Position numbers and translations under genes: made by a program
Shown: positions 40,862 through 62,268 of the stretch, piece by piece
Layout: each line of letters begins with the position of its first letter
How positions within the stretch are numbered: position 1 is the first letter of the stretch
The notes under the pieces: generated by a model
What the model saw: only the letters and a program-made list of their open reading frames with translations
Told to the model about the DNA's origin: nothing
The model's database searches: none
From: Bradyrhizobium quebecense
GTDB taxonomy: Bacteria > Pseudomonadota > Alphaproteobacteria > Rhizobiales > Xanthobacteraceae
Length of the DNA: 64,000 nt
NCBI RefSeq assembly: GCF_013373795.3
Contig: NZ_CP088022.1
Span: 6,758,001-6,822,000 of the forward strand
Direction: 5' to 3'

Positions 40862-40951
40862 GGAGGCAAGAACGATCCCAAAAATTGGCTCGATTCTTGC
40901 TTATCTTAGTCCGCTTGGGATGTACACGGCTTGACGGATGCAAAATTTGGG

Positions 40952-41950
40952 CTACAGGCGGAATTCCTCGCCAAGGTAAAGCCTGCGTACATCCGGGTCG
41001 TTAACGATCTCCTCCGGGCTGCCCTCAGTCAAGATCTCACCGGCATAGACGATATAGGCACGGTCGGTCAGGCCGAGCGTCTCGCGGACGTTGTGGTCGG
41101 TGATGAGCACGCCGATGCCGCGGTTGGTGAGATGGCGCACGAGGTCCTGGATGTCGCCGACCGCGATCGGGTCGATGCCGGCGAACGGCTCGTCGAGCAG
41201 CATGTAGTTCGGACGCGTCGCCAGCGCGCGCGCAATTTCGACGCGGCGGCGCTCGCCGCCGGACAGCGCGATCGACGGGCTCTTGCGCAGCCGCGTGATG
41301 TTGAATTCGTCGAGCAGCGAATCCAGCTCGTGCTCGCGCTTCTTCTTCGAGGGCTCGACGACCTCGAGCACCGCGCGGATGTTCTGCTCGACCGACAGGC
41401 CGCGGAAGATCGAGGCTTCCTGCGGCAGATAGCCGATGCCGAGCCGCGCGCGCTGATACATCGGCAGCTTGGTGACGTCGTGACCATCGAGCTCGATCGC
41501 GCCGCGATCGGCCTTGATCAGGCCGGTGATCATGTAGAACACCGTGGTCTTGCCGGCGCCGTTGGGCCCGAGCAGGCCGACCGCCTCGCCGCGGCGCACA
41601 TAGATGCTGACGCCGCGCACGACCTGGCGGCTGCCAAAACTCTTTTCCACGCTATGCACAGCCAGATAGCCCGGCCGCTTGATGAGCTGCGGCGCAGAAG
41701 CGGCGTTGTTCTTAGCCGGATTCCTGGCCGGCCTCGCCCGCGCCGGGGCGGGTGCTGCTGCGGGCTGGGATCGCGGCAGCTCGACGGCGGGAACCGGAGC
41801 GGCGCGCGCCATCGGCGGCGCGTCGCGCACCGGTGACGTCAGCATCTCGCCGAACTGGTCGCCGAGCGCCGTGATGTCGTCATGCGCGCGCGCAAATCCG
41901 GAACTGCGTTTCGCAGGGCGCCGCCGGAACATGCCGAGAAAATCCACCAT
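40952..41950 (-). CDS. lptB: LPS export ATPase LptB with N-terminal extension
   Basis: ABC ATPase of the LptBFGC extractor. Walker [10 protein letters not shown] at residues 128-136, signature [14 protein letters not shown], Walker [11 protein letters not shown] and [13 protein letters not shown], ending YLGEEFRL. Typical LptB has about 240 residues; here about 95 extra residues, rich in Pro and Ala, precede the core. Start 41950 is kept because this region has no internal stop. The lptC-lptA-lptB order with rpoN is standard. Confidence 0.94.
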
Positions 41951-42214
41951 CCCCGCTTCGCTTCAGCCTTTCACGGTGATCCCGCAACCTTGCCTGCGCA
42001 CCAATCGATTCGCACGGCGAAGCGCGATCACCCGCGCCTTGAATGAATGGATGCCCCTGTCCCGGCCAACATAACTCCCCCTCAAAGGCACATCGTCCGG
42101 CCGGGCCGCTGCAGTAGATACAGTCTCGCCCCGCGCGCTTCAACCTCGCGGTCGCAAAATATTATCTAACTTATTGATTCTACTTCACCTTACGCGAAGC
42201 TTACTTTGTGAAGC

Positions 42215-42946
42215 CTATTTCGACTTGCTACCCGGAAACAGTTGGAGCGGCGACGGGGCCGCGCCGGGGGCAGCCGGCGCGCCGCAGCCGCCCTTGCCGT
42301 TCTGTCCGCCCTGCGACTGGATGAACAGGCCCTGCACCTTGCCGCTGTCGGATTCCACCCGCGAGACGCCGGTGGTCATGTCGACCAGCAGACGGTCGCC
42401 GCGCAGCACGTTCTGGCACTGGGTCAGCACCACCTGGCCGCCGCCACCGCCAAGCATGGTGATCAGGTTGGTCTTGGTGTCGAAGATCGCGGTCTCGCCG
42501 GTAACCACCTGATCCTTCTGGGTGACGACGACATTGCCCTTCGCCTCCAGGCGCTTGATCGAGGACGCGCCGCCGGGGCCGGGCGTTGCCGACTGTATCG
42601 GCGCAGCGCCCTTGGTGGCCCCGCCTTTGCTGCCGGCCGGAGCAGGCGCCGGCGTCTGGGTCGACTTATCCTCGTAGAACACGACCAGGACCTTCGAGGT
42701 CATGGTGGTGTCGCCCTGCACGACCTTCACATTGCCGGCGAAGGTCGCCTCCTTCTTCTTGTCGCGCATTTCGAGCGAGGCGGCCTCGATCTGGATCGGC
42801 TGGTCGCGGTTCTGCGAAAAGCCCTGCATGGCGTTGGGAACGCCACTCATCGAGCCCTGCGCGGACGCAGCGCCGGCTGCGAACAGCGTGAGCAGAAAGG
42901 CCGCAATTGCGATGCCGTGCGGAAAACGTCTCATCATCAAATTCAT
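42215..42946 (-). CDS. lptA: LPS transport periplasmic protein LptA
   Basis: Beta-jellyroll bridge that carries LPS across the periplasm. The 243 residues begin with a signal peptide (FPHGIAIAAFLLTLFAAGAA). QPIQIEAASLEMRDKKKEAT and VTQKDQVVTGETAIFD repeat the OstA strand pattern. The tail is extended and rich in Gly and Gln, ending LFPGSKSK. The ATG overlaps the lptC stop (ATGA). Confidence 0.92.
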   Translation of the reverse strand: MNLMMRRFPHGIAIAAFLLTLFAAGAASAQGSMSGVPNAMQGFSQNRDQPIQIEAASLEMRDKKKEATFAGNVKVVQGDTTMTSKVLVVFYEDKSTQTPAPAPAGSKGGATKGAAPIQSATPGPGGASSIKRLEAKGNVVVTQKDQVVTGETAIFDTKTNLITMLGGGGGQVVLTQCQNVLRGDRLLVDMTTGVSRVESDSGKVQGLFIQSQGGQNGKGGCGAPAAPGAAPSPLQLFPGSKSK

Positions 42947-43668
42947 TTCGGGTTGGCGGACTTGCGCGGCTTCGGTGGCGGCGGAGGTGGCGCGGGCTCG
43001 GCGGGCGGGCTCGGGTTGTTGTCGCCGAGCTTGTCCAGGTTCATCACGACATTGCCTTCGAACCGCACGAGCTCGCCGCTGTTGTAGATCCTGAGGCGGT
43101 CGGCGGTCAGCGTGCCTTCGAGCAGCTTGACGTCGACATGCTCGTCCGACGACACGTTGCCCTTGTTGATGTCGACAAAGGCCTGCGTCAGCTTGGCCTC
43201 ATAGCCGGTGGACGACTGCAGGAAGATATCCTCGCGCAGGTCGAGCAGCTGCTTCTTGTTGTCGAAGAACCCGGTGCGTGCATCCATCGTCACCGTCGAC
43301 TGATCCTGCTGCGCCACCTTGGCGCGGATCGTCTTCAGCTCGACATGGTCGGGATCGGTGACGTCCTGGATCGCCGCCTTGGCCCACATTTCATAGGGCC
43401 GGCCGTCGGCCGAGAAGCCGGCGATATGCGGCGATTCCATCGTGATCTTGGTGCCGGACACGACGAGGTTGTCCATCTCGACCGGCAGCTTGGGGATCAG
43501 CTCGCGGAATGGATTGTAGAGCGAGATGAAGATGATCGAGGCCATCGACAGCCCGACCACCGCAGGCACCGCGATGCGCAGGATCCGCACCATGCGGCTG
43601 TGCCGCGCGGCGGCGGCAAAGCGCGCCTCGAGGCCCGTGACATAGGCTGGATTCTGAACCGAATTCAC
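42943..43668 (-). CDS. lptC: LPS export protein LptC
   Basis: Inner-membrane anchored OstA-like protein linking LptBFG to LptA. The 241 residues have one N-terminal membrane segment (VRILRIAVPAVVGLSMASII), periplasmic beta-strand repeats such as VSGTKITMESPHIAGFSADG, and a Pro-rich tail (PAEPAPPPPPPKPR). It overlaps lptA by 4 bases. Confidence 0.92.
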   Translation of the reverse strand: MNSVQNPAYVTGLEARFAAAARHSRMVRILRIAVPAVVGLSMASIIFISLYNPFRELIPKLPVEMDNLVVSGTKITMESPHIAGFSADGRPYEMWAKAAIQDVTDPDHVELKTIRAKVAQQDQSTVTMDARTGFFDNKKQLLDLREDIFLQSSTGYEAKLTQAFVDINKGNVSSDEHVDVKLLEGTLTADRLRIYNSGELVRFEGNVVMNLDKLGDNNPSPPAEPAPPPPPPKPRKSANPK

Positions 43669-43850
43669 CTGAGCTCCAGAGGCGCGGAATTGCCCCTATT
43701 CTAGCCGGAGCCGCCCCAATATGCAGCCCGGACCTCGCGTCGCGCGCCCCAAGCCGACTTCAAGGCGGACCACGCGTGAACAGTTTGGCCGAAACGGGGC
43801 GGAACCGGCCCGGCTGCGACGAATTCGGCGCCCACCATGAACGGGCGAAA

Positions 43851-44465
43851 TCACGAATGGGCGAAGATGTCCTCAGCCTCCCAGCCGTCAAGATCGAGCC
43901 TGGCGCGCGTCGGCAGGAAATCAAAGCACGCCTGGGCGAGATCAGTCCGTCCCTCGCGCGCCAGCATCACATTCAACTTGTCGCGCAGCGCATGCAAATG
44001 CAGTACGTCGGACGCGGCATAGGCGAGCTGGGCCTCGCTGAGGCTTTGCGCACCCCAGTCGCTCGACTGCTGCTGCTTCGACAATTCGACGTTCAGCACC
44101 TCGCGCACCAGATCCTTCAGGCCATGGCGGTCGGTATAGGTGCGCGCCAGGCGCGAGGCGATCTTGGTGCAATAGACCGGCGCCGGCATCACGCCGAACG
44201 TGTTGTAGAGCACCGCGACGTCGAACCGCGCGAAATGGAAGATCTTGGTGATCGCAGGATTCGCGAGCAGCGCCTTCAGGTTCGGCGAGTCCGTGTGCCC
44301 CTTCGGAATCTGGATCACGTCGGCGGTGCCGTCACCGTTCGACATCTGCACCACGCAGAGCCGGTCACGGTGCGGATGCAGTCCCATGGTCTCGGTGTCG
44401 ATTGCCACGGAATCGGTGTAGCGGGACAGATCAGGCAGGTCGCCGCGATGCAGGCGGATGGTCAT
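43851..44465 (-). CDS. rnd: Ribonuclease D, short form
   Basis: DEDD 3'-5' exonuclease of tRNA 3' maturation. The 204 residues contain Asp23 and Glu25 in VAIDTETMGL, the HFARFDVAVL helix and a third motif AYAASDVLHLHAL. It lacks the HRDC domains of E. coli RNase D, as in other alphaproteobacteria. Start 44465 is preferred over a longer frame. It precedes lptC in this cluster. Confidence 0.93.
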   Translation of the reverse strand: MTIRLHRGDLPDLSRYTDSVAIDTETMGLHPHRDRLCVVQMSNGDGTADVIQIPKGHTDSPNLKALLANPAITKIFHFARFDVAVLYNTFGVMPAPVYCTKIASRLARTYTDRHGLKDLVREVLNVELSKQQQSSDWGAQSLSEAQLAYAASDVLHLHALRDKLNVMLAREGRTDLAQACFDFLPTRARLDLDGWEAEDIFAHS

Positions 44466-44827
44466 GAAAAAGGGCCTCGGGTCTCGGATCGATTCGACGG
44501 GCGACACTAGCGCTCAAACGCCCGGGATGCGAGCGGATAGGACGTCTCGGGCCCCTCAGCCAAGGGTTTCCGCCCAGCTTTGCCATATCCCGACACGGCG
44601 GCCCAGTCGCGCGACTGCTGTTGCATTTGGATCACGCTGCAATTCAAACGATCAGAGGTGGGATGATCGGAGGCGGCACAATTCCCATATGGAAGCATGG
44701 GAAATTTCGCGGCCCTCGATCACGCTTCCGCGCATTTTTTGCATTTCGGCGCCGATGAAATCCGCGAACGGGGCCCCTATCTGTGCCCAGCCGCTCGCAG
44801 CTCCACTCATCATCACGAATGAGCCTC
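44466..44827. other. Gene-free gap between rnd and an MFS gene
   Basis: About 360 bases, divergent promoters expected. A loose inverted repeat CCCAT / ATGGG at 44,686-44,703 is the only structure seen. Short frames here lack ribosome sites. Confidence 0.45.
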
Positions 44828-46093
44828 ATGTCGGAACAGACCATCGCCGCGCCGATCGACGAGCCGCAGGAACGCGGCTTTTCGCGCTATCAATCGTTCC
44901 TGATCGCGCTGCTTGCCTTCACGCAGTTCACCCTGATCCTCGACTTCATCATCATGTCGCCGCTCGGCGCCATCCTGATGCCGTCGCTCAACATCACGGC
45001 CGGGCAGTTCGGCGTCGCGGTCTCGGCCTACGCGTTCGCGGCCGGCATTTCCGGCATCCTCGCCGCCGGCTTTGCCGATCGCTTCGACCGCAAGCGGCTC
45101 TTGCTGTTCTTCTATGTCGGCTTCACGTTCGGCACCGTGCTCTGCGCCCTGGCGCAGAATTTCCATGTGCTGCTGCTCGGCCGCATCGTCACCGGCCTGT
45201 TCGGCGGGGTGATCGGCTCCGTCGTGCTCGCCATCGTCACCGACCTTTTTCCGCTGCATCTGCGCGGCCGGGTGATGGGCTTCATCCAGACTGCGTTCGC
45301 CGCGAGCCAGGTGCTCGGCGTGCCCGCCGGGCTTTTCCTCGCCAATCACTGGAACTGGCACATCTGCTTCGTGGCCATCGTCGGCCTGTCGATCGCGGCA
45401 ATCGCCACCATCGCGCTGGTGATGGAGCCGGTCGACGGACATCTCAAGCTGCAGCACGACAGCAACCCGTTCCAGCATTTGATCTCAACCGTCGCGCAGC
45501 CGCGCTACACGCTGGCCTTTTTGGTCACGACGCTGCTGGCGACCGGCGGCTTCATGCTGATGCCGTTCGGCAGCGCCTTCACCGTGCACAATCTCGGCAT
45601 CGACATCGTCCATCTGCCGACGATCTATCTGGTCTCCGGCCTGTTCAGCATCCTGATGGGACCGCTGGTCGGCCGCGCCAGCGATGCGTTCGGCAAATAT
45701 CCGACCTTCATCTTCGGCTGCGTGGTGTCGGCCATCATGGTGCTGATCTACACCCATCTCGGCCACGTCTCGCTGCTGACCGCGATCATCGTCAATGTGC
45801 TGATGTTCGTCGGCATCTTCTCGCGCATGATCCCCTCCCAGGCGCTGATGTCGGCGATCCCCGATGCGAGCCAGCGCGGATCGTTCAGCGCGATCAGCGC
45901 GTCGGTGCAGCAGTTGTCGGGCGGGTTGGGCTCGGTGGCTGCAGCCGCGATCGTCGCCGAGAATCCGGACGGCTCGCTGCTGCATTTCGACCGGATCGGC
46001 TATGTCGTGGTAGCGAGCTCGATGATCTCAATGATCGCGATGTACTTTGTGCAGCGGCCGATCGCAAAGCGCGCGGGGCGGCGGGTGGTGTGA
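44828..46093 (+). CDS. MFS transporter (drug:H+ antiporter type)
   Basis: About 421 residues and 12 predicted membrane segments. GFADRFDRKRLLLFFYVG is the loop-2 MFS motif and GRIVTGLFGGVIGS follows. It resembles Bcr/ProP-like and arabinose-efflux facilitators; the substrate is unknown. Start options are 44819 and 44828 (MSEQTIAAPI); I prefer 44828. It marks the right edge of the core before the island. Confidence 0.8.
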   Translation: MSEQTIAAPIDEPQERGFSRYQSFLIALLAFTQFTLILDFIIMSPLGAILMPSLNITAGQFGVAVSAYAFAAGISGILAAGFADRFDRKRLLLFFYVGFTFGTVLCALAQNFHVLLLGRIVTGLFGGVIGSVVLAIVTDLFPLHLRGRVMGFIQTAFAASQVLGVPAGLFLANHWNWHICFVAIVGLSIAAIATIALVMEPVDGHLKLQHDSNPFQHLISTVAQPRYTLAFLVTTLLATGGFMLMPFGSAFTVHNLGIDIVHLPTIYLVSGLFSILMGPLVGRASDAFGKYPTFIFGCVVSAIMVLIYTHLGHVSLLTAIIVNVLMFVGIFSRMIPSQALMSAIPDASQRGSFSAISASVQQLSGGLGSVAAAAIVAENPDGSLLHFDRIGYVVVASSMISMIAMYFVQRPIAKRAGRRVV

Positions 46094-46287
46094 CGGGCGG
46101 TCGCGGATCTGGAGGTATGGCGGCCGGGACGAGCTTGAATCGGCCAGCGCGGACCAATTGGTGGCGCGGGCTGGCCGTCTCGTCCGATTGGTCTTGTCGA
46201 TACTGGGTTGATCTCGTTAGGCAGCGACGCAACGATCCGCCTACTTCTAAGATCAGTGCTGCTTGAAGCCCAAACGCCCTCGTCGGT

Positions 46288-46315
46288 GGCGGGTTACGGC
46301 TTCGCCTAACCCGCC
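46288..46315. repeat. REP-like hairpin
   Basis: GGCGGGTTA / TAACCCGCC with loop CGGCTTCGCC. This is typical of intergenic rhizobial palindromes of the GGTGGGTTA type. Confidence 0.65.
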
Positions 46316-46599
46316 CCACGAACGTTAGCGATTTCAATCGCTTGAAAAGGGGGTGGTGCCCAGGAAAGGATTGTCTCCCAAGACGCTTAAAGCAAGCAAA
46401 ACCAATTACTTAACGCCACCTCGGATGCCGGCTTTGTACCAAGCAAATGTGCCGATGTCGATAGCAGAATTCGTCTTCCCCAATGCTCTGCCTACTTAGC
46501 TTGCTATTATCTCTGCCGCTCTGCTTCAGGCGCGCTCACGCATTTGACGGAGGGCTGTACATAATTGGGACGTATGAACGATCAACGCTATAACGCCTT

Positions 46600-46641
46600 T
46601 TGCCTTTGAAATGTTGGTAACGTTGTAACGTTCGCGCGGAG
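46600..46641 (+). repeat. Module-flanking direct repeat, left copy
   Basis: TTGCCTTTGAAATGTTGGTA continuing to CGCGCGGAG matches bases 51,083-51,118 in the same orientation. The left copy carries an 8-base GTAACGTT tandem absent on the right. The pair brackets the AvcD module. Confidence 0.7.
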
Positions 46642-46985
46642 TCGCGAAGGACCGACCCATTAGTCCGAAGTTTGCGGCGGCGATACGCAGAAAACCGAAT
46701 CTCTTGAATCACTTGAGGCAAAATTCGCTTGCCAAAAGTGTCCATGTGATTGGCCGAGCCGATGTTCACAAATCATCCCATTTGTGATTCGATTCGAAAC
46801 TCCAGGGCAGCGAACTGCGTGTCCAGTAGCGAAAAAGGCGATTTTCGAGAATCGTGAGTCAGATCAGTCGGTTGGTCGGCTGCTCGACTCGGCAACGCAC
46901 ACTTCGGATTAGTCACAAAGCGTCACAGGGGTTGGGGCGGACCGCGGCAGCGCTCGGGCGGCAGGCTAGCCGGGCAAGGTAGGAC

Positions 46986-47780
46986 TCACCATCGTTTGCC
47001 GAAGAGGTCACCGGTCTGAGTTTGGTCAACGCTTGTACGCTCTGTTTGTGACGGAGCTTCCGTTGGCGTCGTTCCCGCGACTATCGATTTCGCCGTAGCG
47101 AGGGCACGAAGATACAGCTCCGTTTGATCCTTCATTTCGGACTCCGTGAGCAACACAAAGTCTCCACGGTTCCAGACTTCGGCATAGCGGCCAGAGCCAG
47201 TGCCCTTCGCCCTTGGAAAGCAGATAAATTCACCTGGGGAATCTTGGAAATCGGTCAAGGAGAATACGGCATCTTCCAAAACCGTCATAAGGAGGCGTCT
47301 TTGGAATAGTGTCAGGGGCATCGTCGCCCATCCCACGATGAAGATAGGCTTCAGAACGCCTGCCTCAGAAATAACTATCAGAGGCTTCACCGGGATTCTT
47401 GTATCGCGGCTAATGCTATAAGGAGCCACGTATTGATCGTATGATGGTTTCCCCGAGTAGTTTCGAACGTCATCATAGTCATAGAAAGCGTTAACGTACT
47501 CTGCGACGTACGGCCTACTTTTTTTGTGACCATTGTTGAGCGCCGCCTTTAGCGCGGTATCGCGATCTAACTTAAGGGCGATCCTGTCTCGAATAATTGG
47601 TTGCCCCGCTGCATAAGAGATTTGGGGCGTCCCCGTCATAAAAGAAACGATCGACTTTACAGTCGAAAGTTCGGTGGGATGGTTGAAGCGTACCCAATTA
47701 TGGACAAACGGCGGACGATCGATCTTCTTAGTGTCCGACCGAAAAATAAGTTGAGTGATATCAGCGAGTTCTGATTCCAT
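46986..47780 (-). CDS. Unknown 264-residue protein of the AvcD module
   Basis: No family recognised. It begins MESELADITQLIFRSDTKK, has a hydrophobic strand LIVISEAGVLKPIFIVGWAT, and a polar tail with PTEAPSQTERTSVDQTQTGD. The ATG at 47780 lacks a ribosome site and an in-frame TGA lies 18 bases upstream, within IS-like DNA, so the native 5' end may have been replaced by the IS5 element. It could be the toxin partner of the DUF4065 protein, or a separate defence component (inference from position only). Confidence 0.55.
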   Translation of the reverse strand: MESELADITQLIFRSDTKKIDRPPFVHNWVRFNHPTELSTVKSIVSFMTGTPQISYAAGQPIIRDRIALKLDRDTALKAALNNGHKKSRPYVAEYVNAFYDYDDVRNYSGKPSYDQYVAPYSISRDTRIPVKPLIVISEAGVLKPIFIVGWATMPLTLFQRRLLMTVLEDAVFSLTDFQDSPGEFICFPRAKGTGSGRYAEVWNRGDFVLLTESEMKDQTELYLRALATAKSIVAGTTPTEAPSQTERTSVDQTQTGDLFGKRW

Positions 47781-48682
47781 TGGTGTTGCGAAGCATCAAA
47801 GGGATCGAGAATGTGGACTGATATCACCCGGGCACAGTTTGCCCGAGAGGAGCTGCGTTTGCCAAGCGACTTGACGGATGCGGAATGGGGCGTGCTGGAG
47901 AGGTTGCTTCCTGTGCGGGCCAAGCGCGGGCGGCGCCCGAAATGGAGCTATCGCGACATCGTCGAGGCAGTGCTCTATCTGCTGCGCGGCGGGTTGCCGT
48001 GGCGCATGCTGCCGCCCACTCTGTTTCCACCAATGACCACGGTGCAGTACTATTTCTACCAATGGCGCGACAGCGGATTGTGGCAATCGATCAACCACGC
48101 ACTCCTGATGTTGGCGCGCGAGGCGATCGGCCGGGAGGCCTCGCCGACGGTCGGCGTGATCGACAGCCAATCGGTCAAGACCACGGAAAGTGGCGGCCCT
48201 CGCGGCTACGACGCGGGAAAGAAGATCAAGGGTCGAAAGCGTCACATCGTCACCGACACCCAAGGGCTCCTGGTCGGAGCGATTGTTCACGCTGCCGACG
48301 TCCAGGATCGCGATGGCGCGCCAGATGTCCTGTGCAGCATTCGCTATCGCTTCCCCTGGCTGCGCCATATTTTCGCCGATGGCGGCTATGCCGGCGAAAA
48401 GCTCAAGGCGGTGCTGGAAAAGATCGGCCGGTGGACTGTCGAGATCATCAAGCGCTCCGATGCTGCACGGGGCTTCCAGGTGCTTCCGCGGCGCTGGGTC
48501 GTCGAACGAACCTTCGCCTGGCTCGGCCGCAATCGCAGATTAGCCAAGGACTTCGAGCGAACCATCGAAAGCGCAACTGCCTGGCTCTTCCTCGCCTCTG
48601 TCCAACTCATGACAAGGCGCATCGCAGCGATAAAAACAGCAATGCAATTTTGAGTCAGGCTCTTAGACATTTTGAGCCTCAG
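47781..48682 (+). mobile_element. IS5-family insertion element
   Basis: One intact transposase gene between two island genes of the opposite strand. I could not find convincing terminal inverted repeats or target duplications, so the ends are set by the flanking genes and are approximate. Confidence 0.6.
47811..48653 (+). CDS. IS5-family transposase
   Basis: 280-residue DDE transposase. The N-terminal DUF4096-like part reads LPSDLTDAEWGVLERLLP and LYLLRGGLPWRMLPP. The catalytic domain has VGVIDSQSVKTTES (first Asp), DGGYAGEKL (second Asp) and VVERTFAWLGRNRRLAKDFE (Glu). It appears complete and is GC-rich, unlike the genes on both sides. Confidence 0.93.
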   Translation: MWTDITRAQFAREELRLPSDLTDAEWGVLERLLPVRAKRGRRPKWSYRDIVEAVLYLLRGGLPWRMLPPTLFPPMTTVQYYFYQWRDSGLWQSINHALLMLAREAIGREASPTVGVIDSQSVKTTESGGPRGYDAGKKIKGRKRHIVTDTQGLLVGAIVHAADVQDRDGAPDVLCSIRYRFPWLRHIFADGGYAGEKLKAVLEKIGRWTVEIIKRSDAARGFQVLPRRWVVERTFAWLGRNRRLAKDFERTIESATAWLFLASVQLMTRRIAAIKTAMQF

Positions 48683-49171
48683 TCAGTGCCTTGTTTGGGA
48701 CTCGAAATGTCGGCGTAAAATTTCATCAGAAATTCGCATCCCGGGATTCGATTCGCCAGAATGATTATATACCTGATCCCACGGTCCGTCCGGGGTGTGG
48801 GAAAGTTCTATTAAGGAGCTCGAAGACATTCCAAGGTAGCGAATCAGCAACGGTCGAAGAAATTCCCAGTCCGTTGGATCGACATCCGACGGGCATTCTT
48901 CTTCCTGCGCAGTTAAGGGGTTTCTTCTGGTCGCCCTAGCCGAAATCTTGCTTGCGCCGAAACGCTTAAATTGTGTGTACAACTCTCGAAAAACTGGCCC
49001 GTAGTGCCAAGCCTCAATCTTCGCCGTTACGAGCGGCTTGCCTGTTTTTGCGACGTACCACGCATGCAAGAAGTAGACGATCTTGTTGATCGCAATATTC
49101 GTAACGGTAATATCTAACCGCTCAGCCGTTTGAAGGACCAAGTTTGCGATGGCTCTAACATCATAGGGCAT
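48683..49171 (-). CDS. SocA/Panacea (DUF4065) family protein
   Basis: 162 residues of the DUF4065 family: VRAIANLVLQTAERL then KIVYFLHAWYVAKTGKPLVT and EAWHYGPVFRELYTQFKRFG. Proteins with this Panacea domain serve as antitoxins neutralising varied toxins, or as phage-associated GepA (family knowledge). It is third in the avcD run. Its stop lies within 20 bases of the IS5 element, so a cut C-terminus is possible. A toxin gene next to it is not certain. Confidence 0.85.
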   Translation of the reverse strand: MPYDVRAIANLVLQTAERLDITVTNIAINKIVYFLHAWYVAKTGKPLVTAKIEAWHYGPVFRELYTQFKRFGASKISARATRRNPLTAQEEECPSDVDPTDWEFLRPLLIRYLGMSSSSLIELSHTPDGPWDQVYNHSGESNPGMRISDEILRRHFESQTRH

Positions 49172-49246
49172 AGTTCAACTTCGGCATAAATCGCAGCTTC
49201 TTCAGCCCGATAGTCGGACGGGCAGTGCCGTTGGAAGTTTTGGCGC

Positions 49247-49450
49247 TCAGCGCGATCGACGATTAGGCGGTACAAATATCTTCGCCGCCTTGACCCGTTC
49301 CAGTGCCTGCCTGCGGACCGCCAACGTCCCTGAGTCGACAAAGTTTCGCACATCGGAAATATCTCCCGAATGCCCACGCAGCTCGTTCTTCTTGCAAAAA
49401 TCGAGCGACAATTGCTGTGGAGAACTATGGGGCGCGTCTTGCTTTGACAT
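49247..49450 (-). CDS. Small hypothetical protein after avcD (67 aa)
   Basis: Begins 24 bases after the avcD stop, MSKQDAPHSSPQQLSLDFCK, and ends AKIFVPPNRRSR. It is basic and soluble, with no recognised family. Position suggests co-translation with avcD and a role in its control (inference). Confidence 0.5.
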   Translation of the reverse strand: MSKQDAPHSSPQQLSLDFCKKNELRGHSGDISDVRNFVDSGTLAVRRQALERVKAAKIFVPPNRRSR

Positions 49451-49473
49451 ATCAAATATCTGCGCCTGATTCG

Positions 49474-51036
49474 CTAACGAATAGTATCTTCTTTCGCGGA
49501 CAGATCCGCAATGATCTTGGCCTCGTATTCAACAGGCGAGTCCAGCGGTACCTGAAATATCGGAACCGCATTTTTGGATTCCTGCCGCGCGAACTTTCCA
49601 TCCTGCTTACGGGGTGTCGTTTGCCGAAATAACTTCAGATGAAGATGGGGTCCGACCCCATCGTATTGTTGAAAGATGACTTTTGTTCGGTCTTCCGGAT
49701 CTTCAGTAATTGCGTCGCTGTGTAAGGCAATGGCTAGGCTCTTTCGATAAGGCTCGATGTATATCACCTTTGCAATACCTGCTGCGACTATATGCCTTGC
49801 GCAATTATGGCATGGATAAGTGGTTGTAAACATCGTTGCCCCAACAAGGGAATGCCGGCCTTCCCGTGCGACGGCAAGAATGGACTCCATCTCAGCATGA
49901 ATGGAGCGCGAGAACTCTGTCAGGTCATCTACTTCAGTGCCGTCTATTATCTTACGTATCTGCTCAAGCTTTGAGCCTGCCTTGAGCAGCCCAGAATCTA
50001 GCACAAGCTTTGCGATGCGATCACCGATTTTGGTTCGACGCACTTCGTTGTGACAAATTTTGCTACCCCACTTGAAACAACGATGATCCTTGTCTTCAAG
50101 ACCGCGCTTTGCTTGATCCCAAACATTCTGATCGTCTTCGGTATACAATCCACCACGAAACTTTGGAACATCATTCCAACCTACCGAAATCAATTCACCG
50201 GTTGCCGAGATAATGGCTGCTCCGACTTGCCGTGACATGCACGCTGATCCCGCCATCGCGGCAGTCGCTTCATACATCGCCGACTCAAATTTGGTTGGTG
50301 TGTGAATATTCGTGTCGAAAATGATCTCTAAATATCGATTGAGACGACGTTTCAATTCATCTTCTTTTTTATCGTTACAAATGAAAAAGTCGGAGAGCAC
50401 AAATATCTTTCGGGTCATTTGACCGAACGTCGCTACTTCGCCCTGATCCCGATCCACGACTGTCTGCACGTCCTTCTCATCTGCGCCCTTGTCCACCAAG
50501 CGTTTCTTTCGAATCTCGTCCGGCGCAAATACTCCAAACAGCAAGAGGGTCTCGCGATAAATTTGGCGCAATAGTGCGAGTTCTTCCGCATTTTTCAGTG
50601 AGTCTATAATGTAAGCTCGGCGTCCGGGCATTAGGCTGCCGTCCGCCGTAGTGCCACCTCGCTCACCCCGAAACTTAGCGATTCTTTCGACAGCTTTCTC
50701 CGCCAAATAATTGTTTCCGAACTTCGACCGAAGCTCATTCCCCGCATTCTGCATCACGTTGATGTAGTTGTTAATCGGAATAGCGACAGGCGGCGTTATG
50801 CTAACGCGACGCGCCTCAGCGCGAATAATATCGCTCATGCCGATTATTGGGGCAACGTCATACCCGAACTGTTGGATCAATATCTCCGCGATGTATCTGG
50901 CCGAAGTTGAAACGCCTGATCCTACTGGACCAACAAGCGCGATGACGAGCTCTTGCGAGAGTCTTTCGGAGATTTCATTGGCTAGTTTTTGCTGCTCTTC
51001 GACCGCTCTCGGTCGCAAGACGATTGGCTCAACCAC
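49474..51036 (-). CDS. avcD: AvcD-like antiphage dCTP/dCMP deaminase
   Basis: Two-domain protein, 520 residues. The N-terminal P-loop domain has GPVGSGVST at residues 36-44. The C-terminal deaminase has the zinc site HAE at 380-382 (RSIHAEMESIL) and PCHNC at 408-412 (TTTYPCHNCARH). This matches AvcD, which depletes dC nucleotides during infection and is normally restrained by a small RNA, AvcI (established in Vibrio). The codon use is AT-richer than core genes. The upstream gap (51,037-51,380) is where an AvcI-like RNA would lie. No sign of truncation. Confidence 0.9.
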   Translation of the reverse strand: MVEPIVLRPRAVEEQQKLANEISERLSQELVIALVGPVGSGVSTSARYIAEILIQQFGYDVAPIIGMSDIIRAEARRVSITPPVAIPINNYINVMQNAGNELRSKFGNNYLAEKAVERIAKFRGERGGTTADGSLMPGRRAYIIDSLKNAEELALLRQIYRETLLLFGVFAPDEIRKKRLVDKGADEKDVQTVVDRDQGEVATFGQMTRKIFVLSDFFICNDKKEDELKRRLNRYLEIIFDTNIHTPTKFESAMYEATAAMAGSACMSRQVGAAIISATGELISVGWNDVPKFRGGLYTEDDQNVWDQAKRGLEDKDHRCFKWGSKICHNEVRRTKIGDRIAKLVLDSGLLKAGSKLEQIRKIIDGTEVDDLTEFSRSIHAEMESILAVAREGRHSLVGATMFTTTYPCHNCARHIVAAGIAKVIYIEPYRKSLAIALHSDAITEDPEDRTKVIFQQYDGVGPHLHLKLFRQTTPRKQDGKFARQESKNAVPIFQVPLDSPVEYEAKIIADLSAKEDTIR

Positions 51037-51380
51037 AGCTTCCTCCCGGTTTTGTTGATAACCTTCCCAGTAAGATCACGGGTTGCCTTTGAAATATTGG
51101 TGACGTTCGCGCGCCGAGTTCTCTCGCGGAGGCGAACAGGATTAGCTGAAAATCAGCCATCTACAACCCCCGCCAGGCAGAAGGTGAGTTTGCTACCCAA
51201 TGCCGGATTGACGTGTTGGGCGACGAAAGGGAACCTCGGCTGCGACCGCCCTCACACTCGAAAAAATAGGTAATCTTGACCGGGTAAGGCGCCCAAGGGC
51301 TTGACTCGATTGGTTGCCCGGTAACACTCTGTCATCCATTGCGTGTATTGCAGAATAAACAAAGCATTGCGAGGGGCAGG
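51037..51380. other. Divergent leader between avcD and an unknown gene
   Basis: About 340 bases without a gene, containing the right copy of the flanking direct repeat. It is the likely site of avcD promoter elements and of any AvcI-like RNA. I see no unambiguous structure for it. Confidence 0.5.
51083..51118 (+). repeat. Module-flanking direct repeat, right copy
   Basis: TTGCCTTTGAAATATTGGTG continuing ACGTTCGCGCGCCGAG, 47 bases upstream of the avcD ATG. Near-identical to 46,600-46,641. Confidence 0.7.
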
Positions 51381-51722
51381 ATGGCGCGCAGCTCGAGGGG
51401 TATATCAACCCCATACAGAGGAAGCCCATCTCTTTCAAAGAGGGTTACTAGCTCAACGGTGAAAGAGTGCGTTCGAGCGGCAATCGACGAACCGCACATT
51501 GATCTGAATATTGCTATTTCACGGGTGTATGGCGGGAACGACCCAGCTGAGCAGATGTGGGATGACGTCTGCCAATACAGAACGTTTATAGATGATGGCC
51601 TCAGTAACAAGCAGACCGGCTTAAAGCTTTCGGCTGTTGAAGGGACCGTTACTCTTCTCGATTTCGAGAAGAAGATTGAAGCTTGGTACAAGTCGCGAGG
51701 TTGGACGGTAATTCAAGACTGA
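51381..51722 (+). CDS. Hypothetical protein (113 aa)
   Basis: Start ATG 51381 has GAGGGG 5 bases upstream. It begins MARSSRGISTPYRGSPSLSK and contains ISRVYGGNDPAEQMWDDVCQ, then FEKKIEAWYKSRGWTVIQD. It is soluble and of unknown family. The gap to the secreted-protein gene that follows is 26 bases, so they may be co-transcribed. Confidence 0.6.
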   Translation: MARSSRGISTPYRGSPSLSKRVTSSTVKECVRAAIDEPHIDLNIAISRVYGGNDPAEQMWDDVCQYRTFIDDGLSNKQTGLKLSAVEGTVTLLDFEKKIEAWYKSRGWTVIQD

Positions 51723-51748
51723 AACAGTTGCTGGCAGGGCGGGGGCAA

Positions 51749-52945
51749 ATGAGCAAGCGACTTTCATTGGTGGCAATTGTTGCCGTGACTACATGCGGCA
51801 TAGCCCATGCTGAACCAAACTCATCTGCAAAAGAGGTATTGTCTCGTATATGTCATCGCGCGGCACTCACCGACGACAACCAAACATTGCGGGATTGCGG
51901 TGCATTTTTTGCTACAAAGCGGAGTAACCGCGCTACTGAAATCAAAGCGGCCCAGAGCAAGTTGAGCAATCTCGGACCCGAAAGTGCGCGGGCAGAACTT
52001 CCGCCAACTCTAAACAACCAAACTCCGCCCAGAGATGCTGAACCGAAGCGCTTGTTTGTACGAGCCGATGCCATCGATAATTTCTGGTATTCATTGGCTC
52101 CTCCGGGCGCCGGGCTAACGGGTGTCCAAGGCGCTTCCGTGAGCTACACAAATGATCGGTTGGCCGACACACAGTCAGCGACCATAAACGGCCGAGTCAG
52201 TTACCTTTTAGTTCCTCCGAGTGTTTCCGACCTGGACAAGGGATACGAATACGCCTTCGCGGGGTGGATTTCAGGCAACGGGACTTGGAAGCAGCCGCTA
52301 AAGAGACCCGAGAACACTGCGCTCAAGATTGGTGCAGACAGCCAGCTCAGAATTATAAGTGACGACCTCTTTGCTTCAGGACGCCATTGGGACAACTATT
52401 TTGGCTTCGATCCTTATGTTCTAACCGATTTTCGTGGTTTGGAACGAACGGGGGGACTCAATTTCAGTTGGGAGCCGGTCATTCCCGAGCTTCATTTGGG
52501 AGCTGGGAAGACAACGGGATATGTTCAGGTTTTTTGGAATTTTAGGCCAGAGTTCGATCTGCGCGATGTTTCTGATCCTGGCGTTACCAATCAGCGGAAG
52601 GGTTTTTATGAATGGCTCGGTTATGCTGCGCGAGGGACGGTGCTATTTTTGCCTCTTCCTACCGGGAATGCATGGATCGATACATGGCTCGTAAATAGGT
52701 TCACGCTGATTGGCACCGCTCAATATTATTGGGATGCTCGTTCCTCGATGGACGTTCGCTCCTACTCTGCACAACTTCAATATAATCTTGGTCTCTGCAG
52801 CTTTGACGCGCCTGTCGTTGGAGTCTATCCAGATTGCGCAATAACCGGCGGGTCTACTATTTCGTTAGAGTACGATCACGGGACCGACAGAGATACTCTG
52901 GTCAAGAGCGATCAATACTTGGTCAAGCTCGGATACAAATATTAA
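51749..52945 (+). CDS. Secreted beta-barrel-like protein of unknown function (398 aa)
   Basis: Signal peptide SKRLSLVAIVAVTTCGIAHA. A polar linker is followed by alternating aromatic strands such as DNYFGFDPYVLTDFRGLERT, TTGYVQVFWNFRPEFDL and LISLEYDHG-like segments, and it ends with the aromatic terminus KLGYKY, as in outer-membrane barrels. This suggests an outer-membrane protein, perhaps a phage-surface or export component. The start ATG 51749 follows a G-rich ribosome site; a longer frame to 51683 runs into the previous gene. Confidence 0.55.
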   Translation: MSKRLSLVAIVAVTTCGIAHAEPNSSAKEVLSRICHRAALTDDNQTLRDCGAFFATKRSNRATEIKAAQSKLSNLGPESARAELPPTLNNQTPPRDAEPKRLFVRADAIDNFWYSLAPPGAGLTGVQGASVSYTNDRLADTQSATINGRVSYLLVPPSVSDLDKGYEYAFAGWISGNGTWKQPLKRPENTALKIGADSQLRIISDDLFASGRHWDNYFGFDPYVLTDFRGLERTGGLNFSWEPVIPELHLGAGKTTGYVQVFWNFRPEFDLRDVSDPGVTNQRKGFYEWLGYAARGTVLFLPLPTGNAWIDTWLVNRFTLIGTAQYYWDARSSMDVRSYSAQLQYNLGLCSFDAPVVGVYPDCAITGGSTISLEYDHGTDRDTLVKSDQYLVKLGYKY

Positions 52946-53065
52946 GCGTAACCAACACAACTTAGACCGGCAGCGATTAAGATCTACCGTATGCATACGA
53001 CGAAGACCGCCGGATTGACGCATGCGCGCGGGGACGGCGAGCGCTATGATGGCGTTGCGTGAAGT

Positions 53066-53155
53066 TCAGGCGGCCTGCTGACCGGCGGGCTTGTCGGCTT
53101 GGCGCAGGAGCTTCCATTCCCAGGGCAGCAGTTCGTGCAACAATCGGGGGAAAGG
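53066..53155 (-). pseudogene. IS66-type transposase C-terminal remnant
   Basis: The last 30 or so codons read RLLHELLPWEWKLLRQADKP then AGQQAA and stop. LLPW is the typical end of IS66 transposases. No N-terminal part is adjacent, so it is a fragment unrelated to the complete IS66 next door. Confidence 0.45.
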
Positions 53156-53222
53156 CGGACGTGGCGCGGACAGCCCCTTTCGTGAGCGAATGACGGCGCA
53201 GTCCGGCAAGCAAGTCGCGTGA

Positions 53223-53477
53223 TTAAGCAGGAATGTACGTCAACCTAATCACATCCTCGCCAATCCGATCATTAGCCATAAGGCGGAGCGGCGGCCGGGG
53301 TCGGGCGAAATATGGCTTGCCGTGACCGAGCACGACGGGGTGCAGGTAGATTCGATATTCATCGATCAGGCCAAATTCGGTGAGGCTTTGCGCCAAGTCC
53401 GGCCCAGCAACTTCGATCTCCCCGTCGCGCTCGGCCTTCAGCTGTGAATAAGCCCAAGAGTGACCCCTCCACCGCAA
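53223..53477 (-). pseudogene. Dihydrofolate reductase-like (RibD_C) C-terminal remnant
   Basis: Reads GEIEVAGPDLAQSLTEFGLI, DEYRIYLHPVVLGHGKPYFA and VIRLTYIPA, the last third of a RibD_C/DHFR-like reductase. The N-terminal cofactor region is missing; its first about 12 codons are unrelated. It was probably cut by rearrangements at the island edge. Confidence 0.7.
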
Positions 53478-56243: not shown

Positions 56244-59200
56244 TTACGCTTCAAATCGCTCGCGCGTTGATGCAGCGAGCCTTCCCAAGCCGAAGTGCTC
56301 CTGCATCCCGCGAATGATCTCCTCTTCTTCCTCCAGACCTTCGGCCCGCAGGATTTCGGCAAGGCCAGCGAGTTCCGGGAGTGGAATGTCGCCATGGTCA
56401 CGGCCGCCGGCGCCACGATAAGAAGTCTTGGAGACCACTTCGGCGTCCACAGGCCAGATAAGATGACGGTCGCCATCCCGGCTGCTCGGGAAGCGTCCCT
56501 TGCCCAGCGCTGCCCAAACTGTCTTCTGTACGACCTCACCGGAGCGCTGGAAACCGTGAGCTCGAGCGATGCGCTCTACGAGTACGTCGAAATAGATCGG
56601 AGCTTCCTGCGAGATCACATGATCAACCATGCGGCGTAGGTGGCCGCGGTAGGACGGCTCATAGAAACTTTCGCGATCGGGGCGAGCTACATCTTCAGGA
56701 TTGGCTTTCACATATGTACCTGGCGGCACTTCGCGGCTTGGATCGCTTGTTTCGGGCCCGCGGGCGTATCTCCGGAGCTCGACCTCGTCGCGGTCGTTAG
56801 CCGGCTGCGGCAGCGGTTGCGCCCGATCGTCAGCTACGGTCGGCGGCGCGGCTAGGACCGACGACACGGCGGGGCCATCATCCACATCATCGTTCGTTGG
56901 CACGGCGATCTCAGTGTCCGGTGCTGCGGTTGCTGTGGACGCCATCGCGCGAGATGCTCGGTCAGCTTCCAGGTCGGCAGTCAGGCGGGCGTGGAGCTTT
57001 TCCATCGCAGTGGCTGCATCCATCCACCACTCGGTGCTCCAGATACGCCTGATCCGCCAGCCAAGGTCGGTCAACACCATCTCGCGCAGTCGGTCGCGAT
57101 CGCGCGCCGTCGCCGAGCGGTGATAGGTGGCGCCGTCACATTCGACACCCGCGAGGTAACGCCCCGGGAAGTCCGGATGCACCACCCCAAGGTCGATACG
57201 AAAGAAAGAGACGCCGACCTGGGAATGAACTACCCAACCCTGCTCCTGGAGTGCTCGCATCACAGCATCTTCGAAGGGTGACTCGGTTCCGCGCCCTGTC
57301 GGTGAGAATGCTTCGGCGATGGCGCGCGCGCCGCTTTCGGCAAATTCCAGGAAGTGCTTAAAATCGACAACACCTTTCGCATTGGTGCGCCCAAGGTCGA
57401 TCTGCTCCGGCCGCAGGGTCGCGAATACGAGAAGCTCGCGCCGTGCGCGGGTCACTGCGACGTTTAGCCGGCGATGCCCGCCCTCACCGTTGAGCGACGA
57501 GATCTGGGCCGTGATACGTCCCGTCTTGTCGGGTCCAACCGCTACCGAGAAGATGATGATGTCGCGCTCGTCGCCTTGGATGTTCTCAATGTTCTTGACG
57601 AGAATCGGCTCCCTGGTCTGGTTCCGGTCGAAGTGCGGTTCGAGGGATGGATCGCTGCGGCGCTCTTGGTCGAGCATGTTCTCGATCAATCGCTGCTGTT
57701 CTGAGTTGAAAGTGACAACGCCAATCGAGTCCGAGGAGCTTTTTGCGCGCCTGACGATCTCTGCTACGACGGCGGCGGCCTCCTTGCGATTGACCTTGGC
57801 GCCGCCGCGTTCGTAAACACCATCTGCCACGTGGATGTAGCGCACAGCGGTGTCGCGAGTTACCGGCGACGGAAAAGTCATCAGCTCGCCGCGGTAGTAT
57901 TTTGCATTAGAGAACGCAATGAGGCTCTCGTGACGGCTACGATAATGCCAACTCAACCGCATGCTCGGTAGATTAGAAGCGAGGCACTCGTCGAGGATGC
58001 TCTGCTGGCTCTGGATAGTTGACCCGTCGTCGTCTTCGTCGTCGACGCCGCGCTGGCCAACGCTGGTCGGCGGCAACTGTTCGGGGTCACCCACGATGAC
58101 GACCTGACTGCCACGGGCGATGGCGCCAATCGCATCCCAAACTGGGATCTGCGAAGCCTCGTCGAAGATCACGACATCGAAGGGATTGGCGTCCGCCGGC
58201 AGGTACTGCGCGATCGACAGCGGGCTCATCATCACGCAAGGCGCAAGCTTAGTCAGAACGTTCGGAATACGTCCAAATAACTGGCGAAGAGGTATGTGCT
58301 TTGCCTTCTTATTGATTTCGCGTGCGAGCGTGCCCCATTCCGGATCCGCGCCAAAGTTCGTCTGGGTCGGCAGCGCAGTTCCGATACGCGCCTTAACGAT
58401 TTGGCGAGCAAGATCGCCAATCTTTTTGTCGGCCGCGACGAACCCCTCGATCGTGGCCTCGTGCTTCTGGGCAAGGAAGCTACTTAAGGTCTCGTCCTCG
58501 TTGACGATCGCTTCCGCGGTCCATCGCGCATAGGAGTATTCGAATGCACGGGTTATTTCCTGTCCCGCAATCCGCCCCTGCTCGACGGCATCGATCAGCG
58601 GAGAGAGGCCTGCCCCGCGCGCTCCCTGCGCAGCCGCCTGCCAGGTCGCCCATTGCGGGGCCTTGATGACGTTTGCCTTCCAACGCGCAGTCCGCTCGAG
58701 GAGCTTATCTATCCACCCCGTTTCGACGCTGATAATGCTCTCTGGTTCTTCAAGGCCGACGCAGGCACCAAGCGCACGAGCTGCCTCGCGCATCGCGGGG
58801 AAAGCCCTAGTCATAGCTTCGAATGCACGTCTCGCTTGTCCGCCGGGCCTAAACCTGGCCACGTCGCGATTCAGTTGGTCCGCGACGTAGGCGAGCAGGC
58901 GTTCGGGGGCCACATCGTCAAGCTTAACAGCGTCCACAACGTCACGCATGCTGTCCGCCCACAAAATCAAGCTGTCAAACCGAGCGACATCGGTCGCCGT
59001 CCCCCGCCAAAGACGCTCGATACCCGCGAATCGCGGTCTGATCATTGCGATCTCGCGCAGCAATATCGCGAGGTCCTGCATCACCACGATATCTCGACCG
59101 ATGTCATCCGGGACACCGCCGCTACAATAGGGTTCAAGTACAAGCCGGACTTTTTTCTTGCGGCTTCCGCGCATGACCATGTTGGAAGCGCAAGCCTCGA

Positions 59201-62177: not shown

Positions 62178-62268
62178 ATTCTTGTGCCCCCAGTAGTGGG
62201 CCACATTCTAGCAATAATTGATCGAAGGAGGAAAGTTCTACCCGAAACAGGCAGCCGGCGGATCCAGA

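Follow-up and report, generated by a model that had tools for sequence, protein, structure and literature searches.

In the available text of the published account, AvcD of the kind found in ETEC and Vibrio is regulated by the AvcI RNA and forms part of a type III system that is released when phage stop host transcription (PMC10511110). Panacea antitoxins carry a GPV signature, as described in the accessible part of PMC8832971, and the available portion of PMC5422525 reports that Caulobacter SocA delivers its toxin to ClpXP. The canonical motif for binding of the beta sliding clamp is given as Q-phi-x-[LM]-[FL] or Q-phi-x-[LM]-x-[FL] in the text available from PMC11139829. Here we describe a locus in a 64,000-nucleotide stretch of Bradyrhizobium quebecense DNA (the window) that consists of two parts, namely, avcD with the gene of a 67-residue partner and a SocA antitoxin with a toxin probably remotely related to SocB. 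Our main reading, to which we assign a probability of about 0.5, is that both parts together make up a defence cargo directed at replication, which an island of ~80.7 kb in tRNA-Leu(CAG) carries at its distal end.

Gene content of the locus

A preliminary description of this DNA had read the locus as one minus-strand series of an AvcD-like deaminase, a 67-residue ORF, a SocA/Panacea protein and an unknown 264-residue protein. All four genes were confirmed; the series is, however, interrupted by an IS5-type insertion between socA and the last ORF that had been overlooked. The first gene was correctly named, as AvcD reached 439.7 bits with NCBIfam model NF041025 (cut-off, 400), 522 bits with the PADLOC dCTPase model and 59.9 bits with PF00383, and the zinc deaminase motifs are present (HAE at residue 380 and CxxC at residue 409). 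An Rfam search of positions 46000 to 53300, run without an AvcI model, gave no match. Searching viral contigs with the window's own AvcD as the query revealed no avcD; two phage records held an avcD, both of them distant. The third gene was likewise correctly named, since SocA scored 63.1 bits with PF13274 (cut-off, 25.7) and contains the GPV signature; its score with NF047745 was 167.4 bits, which is below the cut-off of 190.

Features of the locus (positions in the window)
Feature	Position	Strand	Remark
Left att repeat, 18 bp, 3' end of tRNA-Leu	46353..46370	+	second copy at L138:3061-3078, outside the window
Left copy of 25-bp direct repeat	46600..46624	+	
SocB-like toxin gene body	46986..47727	-	family P0001-P0082, own included
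264-aa ORF (first ~17 residues IS-derived)	46986..47780	-	closest relatives start where IS stops
Toxin C-terminal residues 255-260, QTGDLF	47001..47018	-	degenerate form of the family's clamp-like tail
IS5-family insertion sequence, between socA and toxin body	47731..48662	+	ends set by copies elsewhere in the genome
3-bp target duplications of IS5 element	47728-47730 and 48663-48665		
IS5-family transposase, 280 aa	47811..48653	+	NF033580, 245.8 bits (cut-off, 110); PF01609
socA, Panacea-domain antitoxin, 162 aa	48683..49171	-	PF13274, NF047745; GPV at residue 58
Partner gene (67-aa protein), 23 nt behind avcD	49247..49450	-	kept behind avcD in L085, L063, L064
Codons 13-18 of 67-aa protein, QLSLDF	49397..49414	-	fits published canonical motif Q-phi-x-[LM]-x-[FL]
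avcD, anti-phage dCTP/dCMP deaminase, 520 aa	49474..51036	-	NF041025, PADLOC dCTPase, motifs
Right copy of 25-bp direct repeat	51083..51107	+	47 nt upstream of avcD

The 264-residue protein, previously listed as unknown, is better described as the toxin partner of SocA; its N-terminus is IS derived, as its closest relatives begin at the point where the IS sequence ends. A SocA gene directly precedes the toxin gene in all 16 loci compared (L012-L027). The window ORF and family member P0002 matched no Pfam or NCBIfam model, including the NCBIfam SocB model NF047746, and a direct profile comparison of the toxin family with SocB was not significant (probability, 1.1%; E value, 0.047). The SocA partner of another locus, L209, bridges the two groups by matching both the toxin family (E value, 2.8e-7) and SocB (E value, 3.7e-6); through this protein, the toxin is probably a remote homologue of SocB. 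The structure model of the toxin had a pLDDT of 88.9, and a fold search returned PD-(D/E)XK-like matches (TM to the query of at most 0.45 among the best 50 matches); these were only weak, and a function of this type was not adopted. P0002 was not found on plasmids, nor was the family found in viral contigs.

The toxin family mostly ends in clamp-like sequences. Within the last 25 residues, a relaxed clamp pattern was present in 53/71 proteins and the canonical form in 10/71, compared to a mean of 3.5 and a maximum of 11 for the relaxed pattern in shuffled sequences; other stretches of the same proteins showed it in 78 of 589 cases. The tail of the window's own toxin falls outside both patterns. 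The same genome contains four further near-complete copies of the IS5 element and one partial copy. As the element sits at the very start of the toxin gene, the SocAB part is probably impaired in this strain.

The 25-bp repeat and the tRNA-Leu island

The locus had also been described as a mobile cassette bracketed by a direct repeat. The repeat itself exists: its two copies are identical at 23 of 25 positions, a comparable pair appeared in 0/300 local shuffles, and a genome-wide search for the 19-base core gave exact matches at these two places alone and three matches when 2 mismatches were allowed. A unique pair with 92% identity that exceeds chance expectation and brackets the genes is what a small cassette moved as one unit would show. 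Nevertheless, we regard such a cassette as very improbable. The repeat was absent from all 46 other avcD, SocA or SocB-like loci, including L085, L063 and L064 (up to 3 mismatches), from all 73 other genomes of the genus that were searched (up to 1 mismatch) and from viral contigs (exact match). An empty site with a single copy was thus not found in the searched loci, genus genomes and viral contigs. Three related modules had no comparable long repeat pair around them. Apart from the nested IS, no recombinase was seen between the copies, and a consensus scan detected no promoter or terminator at them.

The base composition also argues against a boundary at the repeat. The locus is AT richer than its surroundings, as had been stated (50 to 52% GC compared to 64.5% for positions 40000 to 46090), but the AT-rich stretch is not confined between the repeat copies and continues past the right one to about 53.2 kb.

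Mobility is already accounted for by a larger element. The genes are part of a defence island of ~80.7 kb that is integrated in tRNA-Leu(CAG) and displays the features of integration at a tRNA gene, i.e., an att repeat at the tRNA 3' end, an integrase and empty sites, the latter in the relatives L129, L133, L134 and L139. The integrase is encoded by a DUF6538 gene whose Phage_integrase match (24.8) is just below the cut-off of 27.1. The avcD/SocAB module lies at the distal end of this island, which contains several other defence genes. The genes thus do lie in mobile DNA, as had been proposed, but the mobile unit is the island and not a small cassette.

The small partner gene behind avcD

The 67-residue protein bears a feature that had gone unremarked, as its sequence QLSLDF matches the consensus of beta-clamp-binding motifs and makes it a candidate clamp binder. 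An AF2 model of low confidence (pLDDT, 64) predicted an unstructured N-terminus, with no secondary structure before residue 40, and a C-terminal helix at residues 40 to 55; QLSLDF would fall in the unstructured stretch. The gene is under purifying selection. The pair formed with its L085 counterpart had a dN of.31 and a dS of 1.64, and dN/dS ranged from 0.11 to 0.40 in the six pairs with finite dS (dS was saturated in two more pairs).

A tree of AvcD proteins was built without L027, L178, L179, L180 and L085, which are truncated, broken or very divergent. In clade I of this tree (support, 89/69, which is moderate), a micro-ORF with such a motif lies downstream of avcD in 14/14 rows, and the motif is canonical in 9, near-canonical in 2 and QKxFxF-like in 3. 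The partners are small proteins of 56 to 79 residues, and their genes overlap avcD or start 5 to 63 nt behind it. With the published motif definition, and leaving L085 and the plasmid locus L200 out of the canonical count, 9 of the 13 clade I loci tested scored positive (8 of 12 without the window, where the motif was first noticed), compared to 0/34 other avcD loci and 1/827 matched control frames. An earlier, wider pattern gave 11/14, 1/34 and 4/556, respectively. The rows of a clade are related to one another, and these counts consequently do not represent independent events.

Clade III has a different partner. An IxDxR-domain protein, unrelated to the micro-partner, is encoded behind avcD in 8/8 rows, and a similar, mostly relaxed clamp-like motif is found near its N-terminus in 7/8 (e.g., QLSLF, QLSFNL and QNSLF), with L175 lacking any. 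Only L205 (QLSLF) satisfies the published definition; L043, L175 and L176 were scored as having none by the script and were then read by eye (L043 via its longer copy, L072). In other clades, 24 tree rows have no such partner, indicating that it is not essential to AvcD chemistry. Upstream ORFs of enterobacterial avcD loci (starting with MGKELSLNK or MSNQLTVID) were not counted as clamp motifs, since they lack the glutamine or deviate from the consensus and AvcI reportedly acts as an RNA.

Two other explanations of the partner were considered. The resemblance to clamp motifs could be a coincidence if a short amphipathic stretch serves a different purpose, for instance as a degron or a generic docking site; the motif is short and was noticed after the fact, and several members carry non-canonical variants. 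The excess over the control frames and the other avcD loci, together with a similar motif in a second, unrelated partner type, makes this explanation improbable. Alternatively, the partner might serve AvcD as a protein antitoxin or as a chaperone, with its QLxLxF motif and helix binding the enzyme in place of the AvcI RNA and the clamp uninvolved. The arrangement of a small co-encoded protein closely behind or overlapping the enzyme gene resembles protein-antitoxin pairs, and a sister clade has an ORF of 50 to 64 aa in front of avcD in 10/11 rows, at the site where the AvcI RNA is described. We consider this explanation rather doubtful, since what otherwise dissimilar partners have in common is the clamp consensus (QLSLDF, QLVLDF, QLELDF and QLSLDL) and since the clade III partner, which is unrelated, also carries clamp-like sequences near its N-terminus. 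The QLELDF of the L173 partner is the core of a top clamp peptide from phage display, going by the available text of the source.

A possible replication-directed defence and its relation to known systems

The proximity of avcD to a SocA gene recurs in other loci. The same four genes in the same order were found in G148 (L085), where the IS is missing, the flanks differ and avcD is broken. In total, five loci (the window, L085, L061, L027 and L235) have avcD beside a SocA gene and a gene of the SocB type, with three gene orders; avcD is truncated in L027. The combination is rare, and no paper describing it was found in the literature searched. The island might have gathered avcD, the SocAB-type pair and the ISs independently, without any joint function. 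SocA or SocB is absent from 43/46 avcD regions (the window and L085 included), avcD is absent from 25 of 27 regions selected for SocA or SocB (L012-L027, L090-L094, L140-L142 and L235-L237), only L061 of the 42 regions fetched solely for an avcD over the cut-off (window excluded) holds SocAB, and the island carries other defence genes. On the other hand, an identical four-gene order occurs at a different site in G148, and avcD and SocAB are adjacent in L061, L235 and L027 with differing toxin types and orders. A rough estimate based on the presence of SocA in 24/152 genomes of the class predicts ~0.04 such neighbours in the 42 regions, where 1 was seen; from the SocA side, 2 of 27 were seen. 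Independent gathering is a serious competing explanation to which we give somewhat less than an even chance.

According to our main reading, the N-terminal QLSLDF would tether the 67-residue protein to the beta sliding clamp (DnaN), leaving the C-terminal helix to bind AvcD or a different partner. The protein might thereby link the dCTP/dCMP deaminase to what the host replisome is doing; it could bring AvcD to replication forks or restrain it for as long as clamps of the host are loaded. The second part would pair the SocA antitoxin with a SocB-like toxin, as in type VI systems, and its target is probably the clamp as well; most members of the toxin family end in clamp-like motifs. Such a cargo would be expected to protect against phage.

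A more far-reaching version, which we put forward only tentatively, is that, in a whole branch of AvcD enzymes, control is exerted not by an RNA antitoxin but by proteins encoded alongside, which would read the clamp or occupy it. The trigger could be the loss or takeover of the clamp during phage infection; alternatively, the partner could aim dCTP depletion at the fork. Two unrelated partner types would each have come to carry a clamp motif, and the repeated proximity of avcD to SocAB, a toxin pair that poisons the clamp, would turn the status of the clamp into an input common to linked defences. If this is true, the same AvcD enzyme has been wired to DNA replication, which would constitute a new kind of phage trigger. 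It would also join AvcD and SocAB, separately described attackers of DNA replication, in recurrent neighbourhoods and add a toxin group, probably SocB related, with the motif at its tail. Judged from the sequences, the locus hints at an unrecognised way of linking AvcD defence to DNA copying.

Among known systems, PanAT (Panacea) pairs resemble the second part in having a PF13274 antitoxin with the GPV signature beside a toxin; the toxin family here differs in that the window ORF and P0002 match no Pfam or NCBIfam model, and the Panacea paper does not use the word "deaminase" in its main text. The likeness to SocAB of type VI (NF047745 and NF047746) is a SocA-family Panacea antitoxin directly before a toxin of similar length and a clamp-like motif in most of the window's toxin family. 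In contrast to that system, SocA is under the curated cut-off and the toxin lacks a match to the SocB model; moreover, the best candidate motif of SocB is internal (QPEMF-like, at about residue 50, with a second position that departs from the aliphatic consensus), whereas that of the window's family is located in the C-terminal tail. Compared to AvcID, the anti-phage dCTP deaminase, the window encodes an AvcD over the family cut-off with intact deaminase motifs but has, behind avcD, the gene of a protein with a clamp motif, a feature that the available text of PMC10511110 does not mention. A canonical motif in an unstructured protein end is shared with Hda, Pol IV and other terminal-motif clamp binders (for Hda, see the accessible part of PMC11139829), from which the locus differs in that the motif sits in a 67-residue protein tied to an anti-phage deaminase.

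Position of the module in a tRNA-Leu island

The preliminary description had presented avcD, a 67-residue ORF, socA, and a 264-residue ORF as one minus-strand series. All four ORFs lie where it placed them; however, a complete IS5-family element, which it had overlooked, splits socA from the 264-residue ORF. Copies on other contigs, four near-complete and one partial, define the ends of this element, which is flanked on both sides by 3-bp duplications. The AvcD-like deaminase was confirmed at 439.7 bits against the NCBIfam anti-phage dCTP deaminase model (curated cutoff, 400), with HAE and CxxC motifs present. The SocA/Panacea gene exceeded the Pfam threshold and carries the GPV signature; it scored 167.4 in the NCBIfam SocA model, under the cutoff of 190. 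Family searches with the 264-residue ORF gave no match. Its closest relatives begin at the point where the IS sequence stops; thus, its first ~17 residues are IS derived, the gene having been separated from its own start. Among relatives, the toxin start lies −27 to +34 nt from the socA stop (15 of 16 loci, those with a start codon found). In the window strain, SocA is an intact open frame, and the IS probably silences or alters the toxin. The four genes do occur together elsewhere: a second copy in G148 (L085:10135-11287) is free of the IS and adjoins a tRNA-Ser(CGA) gene, and its avcD is broken (internal part missing, frame shifts).

The direct repeat around the module is real (23 of 25 positions identical; 0 of 300 local shuffles gave an equal), and its exact 19-base core occurs only at these two sites in the 9.17-Mb genome. 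The 25-bp repeat was absent from all 73 other genus genomes (≤1 mismatch) and from 46 of 46 other loci (≤3 mismatches), including the second four-gene copy and the two further sites at which avcD is accompanied by the 67-residue gene, and viral contigs contained no exact match. The module does lie in mobile DNA, as proposed; however, the mobility seen is that of an ~80.7-kb island with empty sites rather than of a cassette. For comparison with close relatives, the sequence was extended by 80 kb past the window. In L129 (G238), L133 (G074), L134 (G036), and L139 (G097), the DNA left of window position 46370 joins position 127043 (numbered onward from the window start) directly, with about 3.4 and 1.5 kb of other DNA slightly further left in L134 and L139, respectively. 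About 6 kb of other DNA separates the two sides in L131, and L130 and L132 were uninformative. The two sides meet at the 3′ end of tRNA-Leu(CAG), marked by an 18-bp repeat, and a tyrosine-type integrase gene (DUF6538; Phage_integrase match just below the cutoff) adjoins the tRNA at the far island end. The direct junctions, tRNA repeat, and integrase place the module at the distal end of the island. Further cargo, from scans of some large ORFs, comprises a DrmD-like helicase, an N6/N4 methylase, and PDC-M27C-, TmtA-, and MkoA-like proteins. The island also encodes a 686-residue protein with a clamp-loader delta-prime-like AAA domain (PF13177), another possible sliding-clamp link. Two AT-rich plus-strand ORFs of 127 and 397 residues, without Pfam or NCBIfam matches, lie between the module and a cluster that we take to be IS66-like.

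Coordinates of the module, its island, and compared features (window positions unless a locus or genome is named)
Feature	Position	Remark
avcD	49474-51036	minus strand
67-residue ORF	49247-49450	minus strand
socA	48683-49171	minus strand
264-residue SocB-like toxin ORF	46986-47780	minus strand
IS5-family element	47731-48662	
25-bp direct repeat	46600-46624, 51083-51107	
18-bp repeat	46353-46370, L138:3061-3078	
~80.7-kb tRNA-Leu defense island	G000:C1:6804371-6885043	window 46371 onward; L135-L138
PDC-S37-type helicase	56244-62204	in island
Delta-prime-like AAA protein	L135:3096-5153	in island
Two AT-rich ORFs	51339-52945	plus strand
Third SocA partner	L209:758-1483	
IxDxR proteins behind avcD	L202 3042-3581, L205 3107-3625, L235 5283-5822, L041, L072, L152, L175, L176	
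~60-residue ORF just upstream of avcD	L195 124-306, L196 705-887, L197 1181-1351, L198 1212-1397	enterobacterial and related plasmids

Small proteins encoded next to avcD

The 67-residue ORF is kept behind avcD in L085, L063, and L064, and a protein database search gave three relatives. For it and its counterparts, dN/dS values of 0.11 to 0.40 (six pairs with finite dS; two more were saturated) show that these are translated genes. The most conserved block is PQQLSLDF. According to PMC11139829, clamp-binding motifs take the form Q-phi-x-[LM]-[FL] or Q-phi-x-[LM]-x-[FL]; QLxLF and QLxLxF are the strongest, and the peptide recovered most often by phage display is LQLELDF. A low-confidence AlphaFold2 model predicted a helix at residues 40 to 55 and no structure before residue 40.

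An AvcD above the cutoff was present in 23 of 265 genomes at genus level, 16 of 347 at order level, and 11 of 398 at phylum level (overlapping sets). Matches were also present in 54 plasmid records, 11 of which were retrieved, and one of two phage records was added. In a tree, 57 AvcD proteins fell into four kinds. In clade I, which includes the window (14 rows; support, 89/69; three sub-clades starred), an ORF of 56 to 79 residues with a clamp-like motif follows avcD in all 14. Nine motifs are canonical (QLSLDF, QLVLDF twice, QLSLDL twice, QLRLSL, QLHLSL, QIEML, and QLELDF), two are near-canonical (QLSFDL and QLELPI), and three are QKxFxF-like. The published definition fitted 9 of the 13 clade I loci tested (8 of 12 with the window excluded), none of the 34 other avcD loci, and 1 of 827 matched control frames (one-sided Fisher P = 1.3e-17, which ignores relatedness of loci); an earlier, wider pattern, with an identity threshold replacing clades, gave 11/14, 1/34, and 4/556. 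An IxDxR protein follows avcD in all eight rows of clade III, seven having a motif near the N terminus (QLSLF, QLSFRF, QLSFNL, QLSFPY, QNSLF, QNTLF, and QPLLF; QLSLF alone is canonical); the two scanned, from L202 and L205, had no Pfam match. Clade II comprises 11 rows (plasmids of Klebsiella, ETEC and other E. coli, Photobacterium, and Vibrio coralliilyticus, one phage record, and three phylum genomes), none with a motif-bearing ORF downstream. Ten have a 50- to 64-residue ORF in front of avcD, where AvcI RNA is described. This ORF ends in tryptophan in several otherwise dissimilar loci (L195-L199, L203, L204, and L170), a hint that it may be translated as well. Our script recognized no partner in the remaining 24 rows.

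SocA and the SocB-like toxin family

The search with the 264-residue protein returned 82 proteins, its own entry counted. A socA gene lies immediately in front of the toxin gene in 16 of 16 public-genome loci, so the two form a dedicated pair. SocA searches led to true SocB proteins (NF047746); the SocB-like family had no match to NF047746, and direct profile comparison with SocB was not significant (E = 0.047). A third SocA partner (L209), ending in QLSLI, matched both the SocB-like family (E = 2.8e-7) and SocB (E = 3.7e-6), a double match that suggests a single superfamily. For SocB, clamp binding through the usual motif has been reported (PMC9690074). The best candidate motif in SocB lies inside the protein, near residue 50 (QPEMF and similar sequences), whereas that of the SocB-like family is terminal. 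Among 71 members of at least 240 residues, 53 tails fit a relaxed pattern (shuffled mean, 3.5; maximum, 11), compared with 78 of 589 segments taken elsewhere in these proteins, and 10 fit the published pattern (shuffled mean, 0.12; maximum, 2). The window toxin's own tail, QTGDLF, falls outside both.

Linkage of avcD with SocAB and proposed mechanism

A SocA gene with a SocB-type gene was found in 3 of 46 avcD regions (own, L058-L077, L085-L089, and L238-L257; some shortened by contig ends), namely, our own, L085, and L061. Because the window prompted the question and L085 was selected in part through the toxin search, a fair tally is 1 among the 42 regions retrieved solely for avcD over the cutoff (L058-L077, L086, L087, and L238-L257). 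In that one, L061, a true SocAB pair (227.7 and 263.1 bits) converges on avcD and its micro-gene. From the class SocA rate (24 of 152 genomes), about 0.04 such neighbors would be expected, a rough figure because SocA may be commoner in this genus and the grouping of defense genes in islands would raise it. The fair tally tells somewhat in favor of avcD, the SocAB-type pair, and the ISs being unrelated pieces, a serious possibility that we rate below the reading favored here. Seen from the other side, avcD occurred in 2 of 27 regions chosen by SocA or toxin: L027, where it is truncated, and L235, where true SocA, true SocB, avcD, and an IxDxR partner with QLSFPY form one series. Among the literature matches listed (titles and abstract starts, few subscription journals), no paper dealt with a clamp-motif AvcD partner or with avcD and SocAB.

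We favor, at a probability of about 0.5, a two-part replication-directed defense cargo, avcD with its clamp-motif partner and SocA with the SocB-like toxin. Given such a partner, coupling of AvcD to replication would be the simplest reading. The partner would hold AvcD at loaded host clamps, or in check by them, and disturbed host replication or phage capture of clamps would alter this hold; the toxin, if active, would arrest the same clamp. In the known AvcD system, transcription shut-off leads to loss of AvcI RNA, by which AvcD is freed (PMC10511110). The antitoxin there is an RNA, whereas the window avcD is followed instead by a gene for a protein with a predicted clamp motif.
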